From contig JAUSMA010000060.1 in the NCBI GenBank assembly GCA_030645475.1, positions 124,001 through 188,000 on the forward strand: a stretch of DNA of 64,000 nucleotides, given 5' to 3'. Numbering within the stretch: position 1 is the first letter of the stretch; the number at the start of each line of letters is the position of its first letter. The position numbers and the translations under genes are program-made. Shown piece by piece: positions 1-14,199 of the stretch. Origin of the DNA: Nitrospirota bacterium. GTDB taxonomy: Bacteria; Nitrospirota; Nitrospiria; Nitrospirales; Nitrospiraceae. Below the pieces are notes generated by a model. That model did no database searches. It was not told where the DNA came from and saw only the letters and a list, made by a program, of their open reading frames with translations.

Positions 1-2
1 TG

Positions 3-1094
3 TTGAAAAAGCCGTTCCAGGGTACTTCTCTCAAGGATCGGGTGCTTGAGTTATTGTCCAAGAGACAAGCGCCGGTTGCTCCTGCTCCGAAGCATGTTGA
101 GCCGGTGCCAGAGACGGTTGAACCGATTCATACAGCACGTGTCAGCGACGAACAATTGGAAACGTATCGGCAGACGGCTGCGCGATTGAAACCGCTTGAG
201 GAAGAACTTCAGGTTGAACGAGACCGATCGGCACAACTCACTCAACGAGTGGCGCAGCTTGAGGGGCAGTCGGGCAATATGAAGGAACTCGAGTCGATGC
301 TGGCCCGAGAGCGAGAGCAGACGGCTCAACTGAAGATAAAGCTTGCAGAAGCCGAGGAGGCGACTGCCCGGGTGCAGGAGCTCGAATCGGTATTGAAAGA
401 TGAACGCGAGCAGGCGGCCGACGCCAAAAAGCAGGGAGTCGTGGTTGAGAGTCTGACGGCCCGTGTTCGGGAACTGGAAGAGGCTCTTCAGCAGGAACGT
501 GAGGGCAGGGCGCAAGAGGCCTCGCGTCTCGCCGAGATGCAGAGGAGTGCGAGTCGAGTCCAGGAAATGGAGGCGACGTTGCATGCCGAGCGCCAGGCTG
601 CCACGCAACTGGTCCAGCAGATGACGGCGATGGAAAAGACCGTGGCCCGATCTCAAGAGCTGGCGCAGCAATTAGCGCAAGAACAGGAACGTACGAGCGA
701 TGCAACGCGCCGGGCGGCTGAGGCTGAACGCCAGGCAGCCGCGCAACTAGCGCAGGAGCAAAAGCATGTGCAGGAACTTTCTCGGCGTGTGGCTGAGCAA
801 GAACAGATTGTCGCACGGATGAGTATATTGGAACAAACATTGGCTGCCGAACAGGACACGAATCACGACCTCGCTGCGCGCCTTTCCGAGTCCCAACGTG
901 CATCGGAACGAGTCCTGGAGTTTGAATCGTTGCTTCAGACCGAGCGAGAACGGAATAGCCTTCTGGCCAAGCGTGCATCTGATACAGAACAGGCAGCCGA
1001 GCAGGCGACCAAACGGTTTGAAGAGATGGCGACGAAGCTTGGTGAGATCGCAGGGTTGGCCTCTCAGCTGGGGAGTGGAAAACGGCGATCCTGA
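3..1094 (+). CDS. Coiled-coil protein, 5' end uncertain
   Basis: About 363 residues, almost entirely heptad-patterned and rich in Glu, Gln, Arg and Ala from about residue 50 to the end, so a long alpha-helical coiled coil. The first 45 residues are Pro/Val-rich and not helical. No signal peptide or membrane segment is visible, so a cytoplasmic scaffold-like role is likely. The first in-frame start is a TTG two bases from the window edge, with no room to see a ribosome site, so the true start may lie outside. A 53-base gap separates it from the next gene on the same strand, and it probably belongs to the signalling cluster that follows. Coiled-coil similarity is not diagnostic and no specific function can be named. 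Confidence 0.75.
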   Translation: MKKPFQGTSLKDRVLELLSKRQAPVAPAPKHVEPVPETVEPIHTARVSDEQLETYRQTAARLKPLEEELQVERDRSAQLTQRVAQLEGQSGNMKELESMLAREREQTAQLKIKLAEAEEATARVQELESVLKDEREQAADAKKQGVVVESLTARVRELEEALQQEREGRAQEASRLAEMQRSASRVQEMEATLHAERQAATQLVQQMTAMEKTVARSQELAQQLAQEQERTSDATRRAAEAERQAAAQLAQEQKHVQELSRRVAEQEQIVARMSILEQTLAAEQDTNHDLAARLSESQRASERVLEFESLLQTERERNSLLAKRASDTEQAAEQATKRFEEMATKLGEIAGLASQLGSGKRRS

Positions 1095-1147: not shown

Positions 1148-2095
1148 ATGGCTGCTGAGACGACAGATGATTTCCAGAAAGAGCTGATCGATCTCTTTGT
1201 TCAGGAAGCACAAGAATGGCTTCAGAACATCCATGTCGCCCTTGATGAGCTGCAACAGGGCCCAGCGCCGGAACGGCATGCCAAACTCATCGGGATCATT
1301 TCGGCAGGAGTAACAAATCTCGGCGGATCTGCGGCCACAATCAATCTCCCGGATGTCGAACAGGCCAGCTTCAAGGCGATTCCCTTCATCGAAGCCCTCC
1401 AGGATCCGACCAAATCGCTTTCCGTTCAGGACTTTCTGTCCCTCTGTAAGCAGTTAGGACAGATTCATACGGCCTTGACCCAGGCCACGGGGATCTCCTT
1501 TGAAGATGACGGGAGTGGGGCCGCGGCTGAGGCAGCCTACTCGAGTCTCTCATCTGCTGAGTTTTTGCAGGCCTTACAGGCGTTGGAGGAGAGACAGCCA
1601 CAAGCGGTCATGTCCGGACGCAACGTCATCCGGGTCATGATCGAGCAGATAGAAGGGCAGGTTCAGGCCGGCGTTGGGCAAGTGGATGCCACGGTGATCC
1701 AGGGCTATTTGACTCGCGTGTCCGAAGCGGAAGAGTTGTTTCTGGAAGCAATTGGCAAGCAGATGCCTGCGATTTCTGAGAAGCTGAGTATTCTCGGACA
1801 GGACGGGGACGAACCCGCCTCACGCATGGCAGTCCTCGACGCCTCACTTCAGGATGTGGCTCGGCTTCGCAGCGAAGCGCAACAGGTGAACGCGGGGGCG
1901 GCCATGATATTTTTTGCAGGGCTGCATAGTTTAATGACTGTGGTGGCGCAGCGTCGAGTGCGTCTGGCTGCCGCACGGGTGGAAACAGTGAAGGCACGGC
2001 TTCACGTCATGGGCACCGCGATCCGGGAGTGGGCGGACCATGGGCGTGCTCAGCGGGCCGCGATCAATCAGTTGCTTCCCTCCAGCCAGTCGTGA
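1148..2095 (+). CDS. Hpt-like helical protein lacking the phospho-His
   Basis: 315 residues, all-alpha. Residues about 10-75 resemble the start of a CheA-type histidine phosphotransfer (Hpt) domain: an acidic helix with an EAQEWL motif, then a second helix ending TNLGGSAATI where Hpt domains have H-x-x-K-G-S-A. The phospho-accepting His is replaced by Asn and the Lys by Gly, so phosphotransfer is unlikely. The rest (residues about 135-315) is a helical region that recurs at the C-terminus of the HD-GYP protein two genes downstream, so the two are paralogues. No membrane segment. The role is probably as a docking or regulatory partner; this is inference. Confidence 0.75.
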   Translation: MAAETTDDFQKELIDLFVQEAQEWLQNIHVALDELQQGPAPERHAKLIGIISAGVTNLGGSAATINLPDVEQASFKAIPFIEALQDPTKSLSVQDFLSLCKQLGQIHTALTQATGISFEDDGSGAAAEAAYSSLSSAEFLQALQALEERQPQAVMSGRNVIRVMIEQIEGQVQAGVGQVDATVIQGYLTRVSEAEELFLEAIGKQMPAISEKLSILGQDGDEPASRMAVLDASLQDVARLRSEAQQVNAGAAMIFFAGLHSLMTVVAQRRVRLAAARVETVKARLHVMGTAIREWADHGRAQRAAINQLLPSSQS

Positions 2096-2174
2096 TGGAT
2101 GTGCCGGAACCCCGCACAGAGGTTCGTCGAGATGCCTGCGGGAATCGCTATCGACGAGCGAAGATGATGGCTCA

Positions 2175-2981
2175 ATGACGACAGACGTGGATTATACGAA
2201 GTATTGGGGACTCCAAACCCTCCCGTTCGACAATGTGCCGGACCCGCGATTCTATGTGCCCTGCACCCAGCATGACACGGCCTATCAGTGGTTGAGTTAC
2301 GGAATTCAGACACGCAAGGGCATGCTCCTGCTCACCGGCGACATCGGGTGCGGAAAAACGTTGCTCAGCCGCAGATTGATCGGCGGGCTATCGCCTGCAC
2401 AGTATGATATTGCGCTTGTTGCCAATCCCGCATTGTCCCCCTCAGAACTGTTGGATGAGGTATTGTCTCAGTTCGGACTCAACCCAGTGAGATCAAAAGC
2501 GGGACGATTGCAGCAGCTCAATGAGCGACTGCAGCTGAATGCACAGCACGGGATCAGTTCGGTCTTGATCGTGGATGAGGCGCAAGCGATTGAACGTGTC
2601 AAAGGATTCGAGGAGTTGCGATTACTAACGAACTTCCAACTCAATGACCGATTCTTGTTAACCGTGGTGTTGATCGGCCAGCCTGAATTGCGACATCGTG
2701 TCGCCAACATTCCACAACTGAACCAGCGAATTGCGGTCCGTGCCCACCTGGGCCCTTTCACGGCCGAGGAGACGGCGCCATATATGAAGGCTCGCATGGG
2801 CATCGCCACTCATCGGACAGATGTATTTACCAAGAAAGCAGTGGCAGCCATTTACGAACAGACTCAGGGGATTGGGCGGCTGATCAATGCGCTCTGTGAT
2901 CAATGCCTCTTTGCCGGATCCCTCGAAAACATGGTAGAGATCGATGACCGACTTGTTCAGCGGGTCGGGCAATGCCGATGA
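2175..2981 (+). CDS. ExeA/GspA-type AAA ATPase
   Basis: 268 residues. A typical ExeA/MshM-like N-terminus (YWGLQTLPFDNVPDPRFY) is followed by a Walker A motif GDIGCGKT, a Walker B motif with VLIVDEAQ, and a sensor region NFQLNDRFLLTVVLIGQPEL. ATPases of this family drive assembly or placement of secretion and pilus machinery, or act as generic AAA switches. The ATG at 2175 is chosen because the family-conserved N-terminus begins just after it; the open frame extends upstream into the preceding gene with unrelated sequence. The stop overlaps the longest version of the next gene by 38 bases, suggesting co-transcription. There is no C-terminal peptidoglycan-binding or membrane segment as in full GspA. 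Confidence 0.85.
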   Translation: MTTDVDYTKYWGLQTLPFDNVPDPRFYVPCTQHDTAYQWLSYGIQTRKGMLLLTGDIGCGKTLLSRRLIGGLSPAQYDIALVANPALSPSELLDEVLSQFGLNPVRSKAGRLQQLNERLQLNAQHGISSVLIVDEAQAIERVKGFEELRLLTNFQLNDRFLLTVVLIGQPELRHRVANIPQLNQRIAVRAHLGPFTAEETAPYMKARMGIATHRTDVFTKKAVAAIYEQTQGIGRLINALCDQCLFAGSLENMVEIDDRLVQRVGQCR

Positions 2982-5106
2982 TGTATCGGCGAATGCTCAA
3001 AAAGAACGGCCGAAGGCCATGAACGAATACAACGTGCCTGATTGGTATCGGATTGCGCAGGAACAACTGACGGGCGTGGCTCTGGCCGTCCAGCGGCAGG
3101 ATGCACTCGACTTGGAGTCCATCGCCACCTTGTCGACGGGTATTGGGGAGGCACTCAAGAGAAGTGACCAATTACTCGTGCAGGCGATGAGCGGGCCAGC
3201 TGGCCCCCCGCTGATTACCAATCTTGTGAATGTCGGGATTGTCGCAACAAAGGTTGGCGCCGGGCTGGGATACCACGGGAAAGAGTTGGAACGATTGACG
3301 TTCGCCGGGCTCCTGCATGACGTCGGTCTGTTTGCCGTACCGCAGTCGGTCATCAGTAAATCCAGCCGGTTGACCCACGATGAACGGATGCTGATTGAGC
3401 AGCATCCGGATCTCGGCTATGAGGCGATTCGAAAGGCTGGTCCACAATACGAGTGGCTGGCGCAAGTGGTGCGTCAAGCCCATGAGCGGTGGAACGGGCA
3501 GGGATACCCTAACAAACTGAAGGGACGGCAGATCAGCGAGTTTGCCCAAATCATCGGGGTCGTGGATGTTTTCGATGCCCTGGTGAGCCCGCGGGGCTAT
3601 CGCCGTCGATATTTTCCGCACGAAGCGGTCCGAGAATTGATGGTGGCGGAACGAACGGCATTCCCGCGCGAGGTGGTGAAAGCCTTGGTCGAACAACTGT
3701 CGGCCTATCCGCTCGGCACCTCGGTGCGGTTGACCACCGGAGAGGTGGGGACCGTGAAGCGCGTCAATACGAACTACCCGCTTCGTCCTATCGTATGGAT
3801 CGAGGGTGATCCAGTCCGCGGCCAGGAACCACGGCAACTTGATTTGAGCTTGACCCCGCTCGTGTCCATCGTTCAAACGCTTGAACCGCCTGACGTCGCG
3901 CGTTTGTCCTTTCCGACAATTGAGAAGAGTCCAATGCCATCTGCGGTCGTTCCCGCGGCATCCGATCAGTTCACATCGTTATTGGAAGGGTTGGATGCGC
4001 TGGCCAGCGCGATTCAAGGCGCTGTCGAGTCCAAGACTCCTGTACGAGAACAGGAGTCGACGGCGTTGTCGGGTGAGCGGAGATGGCCTGTGCGTTCTTC
4101 TGCGCAGAATCTGACGGATCCAAGCTTTGAGAAAGAAGTGATCGGGCTTTTTGCCCTCGAAGCGCATGAATGGCTGGCTCAAATTCAGGCGGCGTTGAGA
4201 CAACTGGGTGAAGGGACGCACGAAACGGTGCGTCCGAAGCTTTACGGGATTCTCTTGCACGGTATTACCAATCTTGCCAAGTCTGCGGCAACGGTACAAT
4301 TCCATGCGATTGAGCAGATGGCCTCGAATCTGCTTCCCATTCTCCACGATGTGGGGCGTCAGGAACCGCGTGCGATGACGGCAGCGCTTCAGTCGCTTCA
4401 GGAGGGGTTGGATCGGATCAATGTGGCTGTGCGTCGATTAGCAGGAACTCAAGAGGACGATCGTGCTGAACAGGATGGCGTTTCTGTTGCACCGGTGGAA
4501 GATACGCAGGAGATATCTCCTGCTATGGCCATGGATGATTCTGCGACTCTTCCGCGACAGTCCCCTGTCGCTACCGGGACTTCCAGCCCACCCCTTCTTC
4601 ATGCGCTACGGGATCTGCAGCAGGCGCGTGCCCGCTCAATGCAACCGGCGCGCGATGTGCTGGAGGCCGTTATCAACCGAGCCGAGCGGGAAGCCAATGA
4701 TCTTGATGTGGCCGCCGTTGGACAGATATTGACCGAGCTCGATCGCCTCGACGATGAGTTCCTTCACGAAGTCCGTCGCCAGGTCCCGATCATGAGTCGG
4801 ACGATTGAAGAGTTACGCGCGCATGGGCCGACGGATTTTGTGACGGCGTCTCAACTCGATCCGATTGTCCAGCAGGTCGAGATTCTCTACGACATGGCCA
4901 GCCATGTGCAAGCGACGATGATCACGATGTTTTTGCAAGGCCTCCGCTCCTTTCTCATGGTGGCAGCCTATCGGAAGACCTCGACGTTGCCGCAACGACT
5001 GGAAACCGTCCAGGGCCGGATTCAAGCGTTGATTCCCATGGCGGAGCAATGGGTCAATATCGGGCGTGTCGAGCGATTGGCCATCGGTAATATTTTGCCA
5101 GTCTAG
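2944..5106 (+). CDS. HD-GYP domain protein with degenerate Hpt-like C-terminus
   Basis: 720 residues. Residues about 90-215 form an HD-GYP phosphodiesterase domain: His125-Asp126 in LLHDVG and the signature HERWNGQGYP at 180-189. This family hydrolyses c-di-GMP, so the protein is a likely c-di-GMP phosphodiesterase. Residues about 250-285 contain a small beta-rich segment. Residues about 395-470 resemble an Hpt domain (ALEAHEWLAQI, then TNLAKSAAT), again with Asn where the phospho-His should be. The last 170 residues match the C-terminal region of the protein at 1148. The start is uncertain: the ATG at 2944 overlaps the ATPase gene, and another ATG lies at 3019; neither has a strong ribosome site. 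Confidence 0.88.
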   Translation: MTDLFSGSGNADDVSANAQKERPKAMNEYNVPDWYRIAQEQLTGVALAVQRQDALDLESIATLSTGIGEALKRSDQLLVQAMSGPAGPPLITNLVNVGIVATKVGAGLGYHGKELERLTFAGLLHDVGLFAVPQSVISKSSRLTHDERMLIEQHPDLGYEAIRKAGPQYEWLAQVVRQAHERWNGQGYPNKLKGRQISEFAQIIGVVDVFDALVSPRGYRRRYFPHEAVRELMVAERTAFPREVVKALVEQLSAYPLGTSVRLTTGEVGTVKRVNTNYPLRPIVWIEGDPVRGQEPRQLDLSLTPLVSIVQTLEPPDVARLSFPTIEKSPMPSAVVPAASDQFTSLLEGLDALASAIQGAVESKTPVREQESTALSGERRWPVRSSAQNLTDPSFEKEVIGLFALEAHEWLAQIQAALRQLGEGTHETVRPKLYGILLHGITNLAKSAATVQFHAIEQMASNLLPILHDVGRQEPRAMTAALQSLQEGLDRINVAVRRLAGTQEDDRAEQDGVSVAPVEDTQEISPAMAMDDSATLPRQSPVATGTSSPPLLHALRDLQQARARSMQPARDVLEAVINRAEREANDLDVAAVGQILTELDRLDDEFLHEVRRQVPIMSRTIEELRAHGPTDFVTASQLDPIVQQVEILYDMASHVQATMITMFLQGLRSFLMVAAYRKTSTLPQRLETVQGRIQALIPMAEQWVNIGRVERLAIGNILPV

Positions 5107-5714
5107 TTCTGTCCTGCCGATTCGCACAGTTCTGTACGATTGTTACGAGAGAATCTTCCTGATCGTATGGAAACGGTGCCTGTCTCCTCTGTACATTTCT
5201 GCGGTATCATCGCATCTCTATGGAATTGCACGGATTGTATTGCCTACCGATTGGGCAATCAGTGTGGTGTGCTGTTTCGACATGGTATTGGCCGCTCATC
5301 CACATGGTTATCCACAAGCCGTGCACATGTTTTGTGGACACCGAAGCTGTCCGTAGCAACGGACTCATGCTTTCCGGCCTTTTCCAGCGCGGAACTTCAT
5401 GGGGTCGACAGTGAAAGACCGCTGGGAGAAGGCCGTTTTGCTGTCGACATCTGCCTTCATCCCGTGGACTCAGTCGAAGGGTATCCAGCTTCTCACAATC
5501 AGCTAGCCCGTTTGCAGTTGCTCAGGTGCCATCCACAATCCCTCATCAAGTCGCGGGGATTGGACGGCCAGCTAATTAGCTCTGCAGAAAAGATCGTTCT
5601 CCTCTTTCCTCGCATGCGACAAACAACAGAAGGATGGTATGATGCCGCCGATTTACGGTCTTTCTTCGTCGAGGACGAGAAGCCTGTCAGCGTAATGAGG
5701 TGGGGGAACGGCTG
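5107..5714. other. 608-bp gap with DnaA-box-like sites
   Basis: No convincing gene. One perfect DnaA-box consensus, TTATCCACA, lies at 5308-5316. A one-mismatch copy, TCATCCACA, is at 5296-5304, an inverted two-mismatch copy is at 5333-5341, and another two-mismatch copy is at 5529-5537. An open frame of 191 codons (5140-5715) ends with a TGATG overlap with the next gene, but its composition (many Cys, Trp and His, no domain) does not look coding. A replication-initiator binding region or a DnaA-regulated promoter is possible; dnaA itself is not in the window. Confidence 0.35.
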
Positions 5715-6236
5715 ATGCCAAAACTTGTGACAGTCTTGCGGCCCGAGAAAATTCAGGAGCAAGCTCGTATCTATGTGCGGTCGTATATCCTCATGCCGTC
5801 CGGGGTGGTCGGACTGGTCTGTATGATTGGAGGGCTGGGATTGCTCGGCTATCAACTTCTGGCAAACCATACCTATACCTCGTTGACGTTTCTCGCCAGC
5901 TCGGGTCTCCTTGTGATCGGCGCATTGTTTGGGTGGGGGCAGACCCGGTATCACCGTTATCTATTGGCCGCCTTTCCGGAGGTGTATGCGGCGCGGATGC
6001 GAACGGCGGTGGTGCAAGGCAGCAAGAAGGCCAAGGCCGCGCCGGAGATGCCGGAAATCACCCATGCCGGACGAGGCTTCGTTCCGATACTCACCGTCGC
6101 CGGGGTGGCACTGATCTTCAGCGCATCGGCTGCAGCTATGCTGCAGGGGGACCTTGACCCCTTCCCGGCTGTGCTGATTCCCTGGGCGGGATTCTACTGG
6201 GCCAAGCTGTTTGGTTGGCGTGGAATTATCGGGTAG
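5715..6236 (+). CDS. Small four-helix membrane protein
   Basis: 173 residues. Hydrophobic segments at about 27-48, 55-75, 125-147 and 151-170 predict four transmembrane helices in two hairpins, separated by a basic loop with an AARMRTAVVQGSKKAKAA stretch that should be cytoplasmic. The ATG at 5715 is preceded at a suitable distance by a GGGGGA ribosome site; an in-frame GTG lies at 5700. I do not recognise a family. It ends 18 bases before the convergent lpxD stop, so it is probably transcribed alone or after the upstream open frame. Confidence 0.7.
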   Translation: MPKLVTVLRPEKIQEQARIYVRSYILMPSGVVGLVCMIGGLGLLGYQLLANHTYTSLTFLASSGLLVIGALFGWGQTRYHRYLLAAFPEVYAARMRTAVVQGSKKAKAAPEMPEITHAGRGFVPILTVAGVALIFSASAAAMLQGDLDPFPAVLIPWAGFYWAKLFGWRGIIG

Positions 6237-11854: not shown

Positions 11855-11940
11855 GCTGAGAGCGCGACGCATCGGAAAGCCCCATTTCGTTGACAATAAC
11901 CAGTGACACTGTTAGCGTTTGATCGTTGTGGAGGTTCGTC

Positions 11941-14199
11941 TTGGCGATTGACCGCAGTAAGGTTCTGCATAGCGCACAGCTCTTTGCGTCACGAGGGCAA
12001 TTCGACGCCGCCATCAATGAATGGAAGAAGCTTTCCGCCGAATCCCCAGGTGACGGGAGCATCTTCAATTCAATCGGAGAATTGCATCTCAAGCGCAATG
12101 CGACCCATGATGCCGTCGCGGCGTTTCTGCAGGCCGCCAACGCCTTTCGTGCAGAAGGCGCCACGCTGAAGGCCATTGCCACATTCAAGAAAATCTTGAA
12201 GGTGGACCCGTCCCGGTACGACGTCTATCGGCATCTCGGAGATCTCAATGCAGAACGAGGTTTGCTGAGCAGTGCCGTACAGGATTATCTCACCCTCGGG
12301 AAGCACTACCTCAAAGAAGGAAAAGGCAAAGACGCGCTGGACATCTATCGGCGGATCGTCACGCAAGATCCCTCGAATCTGGATGCCCAGCAGCGGGTGG
12401 CGGAACTGTGCCTGCAAGAAAATATGCAGGACGAAGCCACGAAAGTCTACTTGCAACTGGGGCGCGAACGGTCGGCACAGCAGCGGTATGCGGAGGCCAA
12501 AGACGCGTATCAGGCTGTCTTGCGCATCGATCCTGCCAACAGCGAGGCCGCCCAATTCATCGACCATTTCGAAAAGACCGGTGGCACCTCTGGGCAACCT
12601 GCGAAGGCGGGTACGGCTCAAGCAGGAGACCAATCAAAGAGTTCAGAGCCGCTCGATCTGCTGTCGGAGGCTACACGTCGGATCGAAGAGAAACAGTTTG
12701 CCGGCGCTGAGGCCATTCTCAATCAATTGCTGACCAAGGAGCCGGGCAATCCGGATGTCTGCCAGTTGTTCGCGAAGTTGCATCTCCAACGCGGAGATCT
12801 CCAGGTGGCCCTCGGCGAATATCGGTACCTCGCTGGCGCAGCCTTACGCGCGCAAGACTACGCACAGGCTGAAACCCTGATCACCGATTTTCTGGCGGTC
12901 GAACCGCAGTCTGTGGCGATGCTTGAACTCTACGGAGAACTCTACGGAGAGAAAGGCGATGCCGCCAACGCCGTGGTCCAGTATGGGAAGGCGATTGAGC
13001 TGTTGTTGGAACATCCCGAGCCAGGGATGCCGACACTGCATGAGGAACTCTTCGAGAAAGTCACGGCACTCGCGCCGGATAGTCCCACGGCGAAAAAACT
13101 GGCGGCACTGATGCCTGGCGCTCCAATGGAGGCACCGCCTGTTCCGGTTCAACCCGAGCCAGTTGTTTCTCCCGCAGTGGCTGTTCCACCGATCCCAGTT
13201 CAGGAAACGAACACATTTTCGATTGCCGATGCCGCTCCGGACGATGCCTGGAGTATGACCTCGAAGATCGCCCCGCTACAGGATAGACATTTCTCCCTCG
13301 CTGGGTCTGAACCGGACCCAGTGTCAGACCCGGAGCCGGTTCAGTCGGTAGAGCCGGAACCGGTTACACAGGTTAATGCCTTCTCGCTGTTGCAGGACGA
13401 GCCAAAAGAGGTTGCGTCCATCGAGCCTGTCCTCTCCACAAACGAGCAGTTCCAAGCCTATGTGGCGGCCGGTCAACATGCTGAGGCGGAGGAATGGCTC
13501 AGTCGACTTGTGACGGCAGAGCCTCATCATTCTGAAGCCCGAGAACTTTTCGGTTACTTGCTTGAAATCAAGGGCGATACCGCCGGCGCCGCCTTACAAT
13601 ATTCGCGAGCGCTCGAATTGCTCCTGGCAGATCCGGAGAAGAAGCAAGAGCCGCAGCCGGCGATTCTCTATGCCAAGGTCAAAGAGCTCGCTCCTGCCAG
13701 TCCGTTAGTCGCCAAATGGGCCGCGACGTTTTCGCCAAAGAAGCCGGAGGTGACAGTACCGGCCGTTGAGGCTCAGGTCTCCGCCGAGCCGCCTGATGCA
13801 CTTGACCCCGAAACCCATTACACCTTGGGCGTCGCGTACAAGAATATGGGGCTTTGGGAGGAAGCGAAAGAGGAGTTTGGTTGTTCGATGAAGGGTTCTG
13901 ACTTTTTCCTGGACTCCTGTCTGATGATCGCGGTCTGCTTGAAAGAGCAGGGAGAAGGTCAGTTGGCGAGTCAACAGCTTGAGCAGTTGCTGCAGGACCC
14001 GAAGTGTCAAGGCGCCAAGGCGCAAGCCATCAGTTATGAACTCGGATTACTCTACGAAGCCCAAGAGCGATGGAGTCACGCTGCCATAATTTATCAATCG
14101 ATTCCGACCTTCCATGATGTGCCGCAACGACTCGACTCGGTTCGTGCTCGCCTCGGACCGGCTCAGGCACCGGCTCCCGCGTTACGCTACGCCAACTAG
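11941..14199 (+). CDS. Large TPR-repeat protein
   Basis: 752 residues. Tetratricopeptide repeats fill residues about 5-390 and 490-745 (e.g. ALDIYRRIVTQDPSNLDAQQRVAELCLQ), separated by a Pro/Val/Glu-rich linker at about 395-480. TPR arrays bind partner proteins. There is no signal peptide, so it is probably cytoplasmic. The start is taken as the TTG at 11941 because GGAGG lies six bases upstream; an in-frame TTG at 11926 would put that ribosome site inside the gene. It is flanked by the cold-shock gene and a convergent dehydrogenase, with no operon partner, so the partner is unknown. Confidence 0.88.
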   Translation: MAIDRSKVLHSAQLFASRGQFDAAINEWKKLSAESPGDGSIFNSIGELHLKRNATHDAVAAFLQAANAFRAEGATLKAIATFKKILKVDPSRYDVYRHLGDLNAERGLLSSAVQDYLTLGKHYLKEGKGKDALDIYRRIVTQDPSNLDAQQRVAELCLQENMQDEATKVYLQLGRERSAQQRYAEAKDAYQAVLRIDPANSEAAQFIDHFEKTGGTSGQPAKAGTAQAGDQSKSSEPLDLLSEATRRIEEKQFAGAEAILNQLLTKEPGNPDVCQLFAKLHLQRGDLQVALGEYRYLAGAALRAQDYAQAETLITDFLAVEPQSVAMLELYGELYGEKGDAANAVVQYGKAIELLLEHPEPGMPTLHEELFEKVTALAPDSPTAKKLAALMPGAPMEAPPVPVQPEPVVSPAVAVPPIPVQETNTFSIADAAPDDAWSMTSKIAPLQDRHFSLAGSEPDPVSDPEPVQSVEPEPVTQVNAFSLLQDEPKEVASIEPVLSTNEQFQAYVAAGQHAEAEEWLSRLVTAEPHHSEARELFGYLLEIKGDTAGAALQYSRALELLLADPEKKQEPQPAILYAKVKELAPASPLVAKWAATFSPKKPEVTVPAVEAQVSAEPPDALDPETHYTLGVAYKNMGLWEEAKEEFGCSMKGSDFFLDSCLMIAVCLKEQGEGQLASQQLEQLLQDPKCQGAKAQAISYELGLLYEAQERWSHAAIIYQSIPTFHDVPQRLDSVRARLGPAQAPAPALRYAN

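Follow-up and report, generated by a model that had tools for sequence, protein, structure and literature searches.

A candidate pair of pseudo-Hpt docking proteins, one fused to a degenerate HD-GYP domain, at the end of a Nitrospira chemosensory operon

Hpt-like proteins that lack a phosphorylatable residue are known from both bacteria and plants. In FimL of the Pseudomonas aeruginosa Pil-Chp system the two putative acceptor sites are occupied by Gln (PMC3019171), and the protein brings PilG to the pole (PMC10519157); the plant AHP6/PHP proteins belong to the Hpt family, are not phosphorylatable, and modulate the phosphorelay (PMC12115143). Among HD-GYP proteins, DvhD of Desulfovibrio vulgaris has a domain that binds cyclic di-GMP (c-di-GMP) without cleaving it (PMC13090378). 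Here we describe two genes in a 64,000-nucleotide window (the whole stretch of DNA analysed, G000:C60:124001-188000, in contig 60 of a Nitrospira genome), which encode a pseudo-Hpt protein, P1, and a protein in which a degenerate HD-GYP domain is fused to a second pseudo-Hpt module. On balance we favor the reading that P1 and the fusion protein are a non-catalytic docking pair of a Chp/Frz-like chemosensory pathway, similar in kind to FimL, and that the pseudo-HD-GYP domain no longer hydrolyses c-di-GMP and may bind it.

P1 and the C-terminal half of the fusion protein are paralogous end to end (BLASTP 28% identity, E 5e-34), and in each an Hpt-like bundle comes first and is followed by a helical region. 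A sequence-only reading of the window had proposed a CheA/Hpt-like helix pair in both copies, and AlphaFold gives a four-helix bundle in each, with helices at residues 4-36, 41-64, 68-83 and 93-114 in P1 (predicted local distance difference test, pLDDT, 79.6) and at 368-397, 405-425, 429-447 and 450-475 in the fused copy. Pfam Hpt (PF01627) is the best match of P1, at 15.5 bits below the cut-off of 24.6, and the fused copy scores 7.7 bits, likewise under that cut-off. A profile of the P1 family run against the PDB sequences matched the CheA P1 domains 1tqg and 2ld6 at low significance and was partly outscored by unrelated helical proteins, and these matches were used for register only and not for family assignment. 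The fused-copy profile matches the Hpt domains of the same-operon CheA in related genomes (whole-protein E 8e-7 to 2e-4). Superposition on 1tqg, the Thermotoga CheA P1 domain, gives a template modelling (TM) score of 0.78 (root-mean-square deviation 2.5) for the P1 bundle and 0.76 for the fused bundle; the CheA3 P1 domain, in complex with CheY6, gives 0.68 and 0.67 respectively. The modelled four-helix fold supports the Hpt assignment without proving it, because designed bundles match equally well.

The position of the phospho-His is occupied by Thr in both modules, T56 in P1 and T417 in the fusion protein (counted from the ATG at 3019), with the Asn of the motif at His+1. The profile alignment to 1tqg places T56 on the phospho-His, the profile alignment to the same-operon CheA Hpt domains has Thr at His and Asn at His+1, and the same register is seen by eye in a comparison with a distant Nitrospirota CheA (AHTLKGSAAIVKL versus VTNLGGSAATINL). 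The spacing differs accordingly, in that His lies five residues before the Ser of H-x-x-K-G-S-A and Asn four before the Ser of N-L-x-x-S-A-A. The sequence-only reading, which correctly gave the two open reading frames (1148-2095 and 2944/3019-5106), their paralogy and their domain order, had Asn in place of the His, a substitution that the three alignments rule out; the survey of Asn conservation that it suggested gives a His+1 column of Asn in 67 of 76 homologues, Ser in eight and Thr in one, so that the Asn is not invariant. It had also named homologues that keep the His as evidence against it, and none of the 76 has it in the His column of the alignment, which contains 63 Thr, eight Ala, three Ser and two Asn. 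None of the 76 retains the catalytic Lys at His+3, which is replaced by Gly, Ala or Met, and His+4 is Gly in 54 and Lys or Arg in 22, including most fused copies. The surface motif L-x-x-S-A on helix B ranks with the best conserved elements of the pseudo-Hpt family. We note that two further, divergent P1 homologues in two smaller genomes (L085:7516-8493 and L086:10824-11801), located beside a divergent CheA and a methyl-accepting chemotaxis protein (MCP), have lost the N-L-G-G-S-A-A-T motif entirely (SGICEAAIR, ARIGESAAK).

Homologues of P1 are present in 75 of 296 sampled Nitrospirota genomes, nearly all of them Nitrospiraceae, and the weakest of the 75 genome matches (G184) is a normal CheA with His. 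Some genera carry a single copy behind the receiver-coiled-coil gene, without HD-GYP or ATPase there (L074-L077, L079), and these single-copy proteins likewise lack the His. In the tree the P1 and HD-GYP-fused groups separate with support; a few branches are long, and the exact order of the single copies is unsure. The loss of the His predates the duplication, as one event and not two, because the single-copy outgroup homologues in related genera are also without it. Independent loss in both paralogues, as the sequence-only reading had it, is ruled out by these His-less single copies together with the supported split between P1 and the fused copies. The fused copy is found in 14 of the 39 loci examined, many of the others having the same HD-GYP without it, and the ExeA-type ATPase is missing from many orthologous loci that carry the pair, which excludes it as a constant partner. 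Among close relatives, the ratio of nonsynonymous to synonymous substitution (dN/dS) lies at 0.11-0.12 in P1, at 0.05-0.11 in the HD-GYP part and at 0-0.04 in the fused pseudo-Hpt. P1 and the fusion protein are under purifying selection and are working proteins, because these ratios are low, and random decay is ruled out by the same values. The proposal of a family of Hpt-like modules without the phospho-His, lost non-randomly, was thus borne out by the 76 homologues, by purifying selection (dN/dS about 0.1) and by the setting in a signalling cluster. As to a phage origin, no relative was found in viral contigs.

The HD-GYP domain of the fusion protein is recognized by Pfam (HD_5, E 9.2e-30), has the GYP motif in 33 of 33 homologues, and matches PmGH, PA4781, Bd1817 and DvhD in fold. 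In PmGH numbering its substitutions are D183G, E185P, H189N, K225L and H276A, and every one of the 33 homologues replaces D183 (G/S), E185 (P/S), H189 (N), K225 (L/I/V) and H276 (A/V); H221, D222, H250, H277, D305, GYP and R314 are retained. The eight metal ligands plus the D183/K225 pair that mark an HD-GYP phosphodiesterase are therefore incomplete. Alanine at D183, H189, K225 or H276 abolishes or nearly abolishes the activity of PmGH (PMC4159591), and it is very unlikely that the domain is a phosphodiesterase, because these essential residues are lost throughout the 33 homologues. In the ligand site, R314 and Y285 are present in 33 of 33 and K317 is Arg in 32; at the level of sequence this is the pattern of a degenerate c-di-GMP receptor of the DvhD type, with R-x-Y-R/K kept and catalytic residues lost. 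The domain may still bind c-di-GMP, with R314 and Y285 kept in homologues that have all lost the catalytic positions. As a control, eight further HD-GYP proteins of the genome were read by the same motif scan, and seven keep the HH pair. The exception, L097 (G000:C33:28643-29077), is a second HD-GYP protein of 354 residues and the closest paralogue of that in the window (E 2e-73), in which part of the site is degenerate (H189 replaced by N, K225 by M, HH by EH); the next gene downstream looks like one for a polysaccharide export protein.

The P1 and fusion genes form the end of a complete chemosensory operon, the start of which lies upstream of the window on the same strand and the order of which is kept in relatives. 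Upstream it encodes a free receiver, CheW, an MCP, a CheA-receiver hybrid, two CheW-like proteins and the receiver-coiled-coil protein; the CheA contains three Hpt domains, each with His, plus a receiver. The receiver domain of the receiver-coiled-coil protein, read from the genome, begins about 300 bases beyond the window edge and retains the Asp, the DD pair and the Lys (MPNVLVADDS...VVSDVIMPD...LKKPF), and the gene adjoins the pseudo-Hpt genes in nearly all relatives. The coiled-coil protein of the cluster described from the window is this regulator, with the N-terminus beyond the window, and the ATPase of that cluster is not a constant member; the setting, a chemosensory operon, lay outside the window.

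A plausible scenario is that the pseudo-Hpt bundles, taking up no phosphate themselves, bind either the CheA kinase core or a receiver, be it the free one, the one within CheA or the one in the receiver-coiled-coil protein. The bound signalling proteins would be held or sequestered, much as PilG is by FimL in Pseudomonas. The pseudo-HD-GYP domain of the fusion protein would have lost hydrolysis and may have kept c-di-GMP binding, as in DvhD, so that docking by the adjoining pseudo-Hpt would be gated by the level of c-di-GMP. We favor docking because of the absence of His in all 76 homologues, the purifying selection, the conserved operon, the His-keeping CheA Hpt relatives and the fold match to CheA P1. 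That the fusion acts as a c-di-GMP-gated decoy, its pseudo-HD-GYP sensing c-di-GMP and controlling receiver binding by the fused pseudo-Hpt, is a possible refinement that we offer tentatively; two dead enzyme domains in one protein would then connect the second-messenger level with a His-Asp relay.

Several points weigh against the docking interpretation. The Hpt-like domain falls under the Pfam Hpt cut-off, the fold is not Hpt-specific in that designed four-helix bundles score as high as 1tqg, and partner binding by P1 or the fusion is something we infer. A sequence link to FimL was not shown, the Pfam scan having given no FimL-type model and no FimL sequence having been compared. Retention of five of the eight metal ligands makes residual metal binding or another activity possible for the HD-GYP domain. 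The Thr at the His position also leaves the modules open to a phospho-Thr role, in which T56 and T417 would be phosphorylated instead of His in Thr-type transfer domains, a role proposed for threonine Xpt domains in ChpA of Pseudomonas, a protein that has both threonine and serine Xpt domains (PMC12632253). The 63 of 76 homologues with Thr exactly at this position fit such a role, which is nevertheless less likely because Ala (8/76) and Asn (2/76) occur at the site and the His+3 Lys is gone; the change of His+4 Gly to Lys or Arg in most fused copies points the same way, and we consider Thr phosphorylation quite unlikely.

The modules might instead be generic Hpt-derived helical scaffolds that have lost receiver binding and join the HD-GYP protein, the ATPase and P1 through the C-terminal bundle, which is conserved too. 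The equal fit of designed bundles and the Lys or Arg at His+4 in most fused copies agree with this, but the high conservation of L-x-x-S-A on helix B suggests that the former receiver face has stayed in use, and H+4 mutants of Ypd1 keep receiver binding while phosphotransfer is lost (PMC6341664); a scaffold of this kind seems doubtful to us. Very improbable is the original version of the sequence-only reading, in which a pseudo-Hpt with Asn for His is linked to a working c-di-GMP phosphodiesterase. An HD-GYP domain is indeed present (HD_5), with HD, GYP and five metal ligands kept, but the Asn sits at His+1, and the proposed link to c-di-GMP hydrolysis fails on the loss of the H189, H276, K225 and D183 equivalents, each essential in PmGH, from 33 of 33 homologues.

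Table 1. Coordinates of the P1 and fusion genes, their domains and adjoining genes in the window.
Feature	Position	Strand	Remarks
Receiver-coiled-coil response regulator, 3' part	1..1094	+	464 aa whole; full gene L043:17700-19094
P1, pseudo-Hpt protein, 315 aa	1148..2095	+	Hpt-like bundle and C-terminal helical bundle; open reading frame list, homologues, model
P1 pseudo-Hpt four-helix bundle, aa 4-118	1157..1501	+	Model helices; 1tqg TM 0.78
P1 degenerate motif T56-N-L-G-G-S-A-A-T	1313..1339	+	T56 at phospho-His position; alignments
P1 C-terminal helical bundle, aa 133-310	1544..2077	+	Common to HD-GYP protein; model and BLASTP
ExeA/PEP-CTERM-type AAA ATPase	2175..2981	+	TIGR03015 211.8 bits; AAA_22 1.4e-23
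Pseudo-HD-GYP/pseudo-Hpt fusion protein, 695 aa	3019..5106	+	Start at ATG 3019
Degenerate HD-GYP domain	3196..3708	+	Alignment to PmGH; fold matches
Fused pseudo-Hpt four-helix bundle, aa 366-478 (from ATG 3019)	4114..4452	+	Model; CheA3 P1 and 1tqg matches
Fused-copy degenerate motif T417-N-L-A-K-S-A-A-T	4267..4293	+	Thr at His position, Lys at His+4
Fusion C-terminal helical bundle, aa 525-692	4591..5094	+	Paralogous to that of P1; BLASTP and model

The fusion gene has an alternative in-frame ATG at 2944, which would add 25 residues, but the alignments with homologues begin near the ATG at 3019. Both Walker motifs of the ATPase are intact (A, GDIGCGKT; B, VLIVDEAQ), and its score of 211.8 bits against TIGR03015, the XrtA/PEP-CTERM ATPase model, under the cut-off of 324.5, makes it an ExeA-like relative only. 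Directly upstream of the chemosensory operon (L043:9429-10289) is a gene for a secreted protein with a CLGCH haem-binding motif, which by eye resembles haem sensor domains of the DUF3365/Tll0287 type and is possibly a signal input. A predicted membrane protein, small and outside the known families (best Pfam E 0.18), is encoded at 5700-6236 in the window, and the gene comes after the cluster in most relatives, before lpxD-acp-fabF on the opposite strand. A TPR-rich protein of 757 residues with proline-rich linkers is encoded at 11926-14199.

If the docking interpretation is correct, Nitrospira, which are central nitrifiers, would be a further lineage in the small set of bacterial pseudo-Hpt proteins. 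The fusion would offer, in compact form, a possible meeting point of c-di-GMP sensing and a chemosensory relay that needs no catalysis. A likely mis-annotation is also corrected, in that the HD-GYP of the fusion should be dropped from censuses of Nitrospira c-di-GMP phosphodiesterases.

A literature search, with most subscription journals outside its reach, turned up no description of this chemosensory operon, and the comparison is thus with systems that share parts of it. Like FimL, which works with the Chp chemosensory system, P1 and the fused module are Hpt-like, related to their system's own CheA, and have the His replaced; they differ in having Thr where FimL has Gln, and in being two paralogues encoded at the operon end, one of them fused to a pseudo-HD-GYP. 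The ChpA Xpt domains (Tpt/Spt) also have Thr or Ser at the His position within a multi-Hpt CheA system, whereas here the modules are separate proteins and the His+3 Lys is lost. AHP6/PHP act in the plant cytokinin pathway and have no fusion. PmGH and the canonical HD-GYP phosphodiesterases share the fold and the GYP motif with the fusion protein, from which catalytic and metal residues are lost. DvhD is an HD-GYP protein with metal ligands lost, the ligand-site Arg and Tyr kept, and a matching fold. In DvhD, however, a membrane protein, the partners are dCache and PAS domains, whereas the HD-GYP domain described here is joined to a pseudo-Hpt; and HD is changed to SQ and HH to MN in DvhD, whereas here HD is intact and HH retains its second His. 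Each half of the fusion therefore has precedent, and what is new to us is that a pseudo-HD-GYP and a pseudo-Hpt are fused, within a chemosensory operon.

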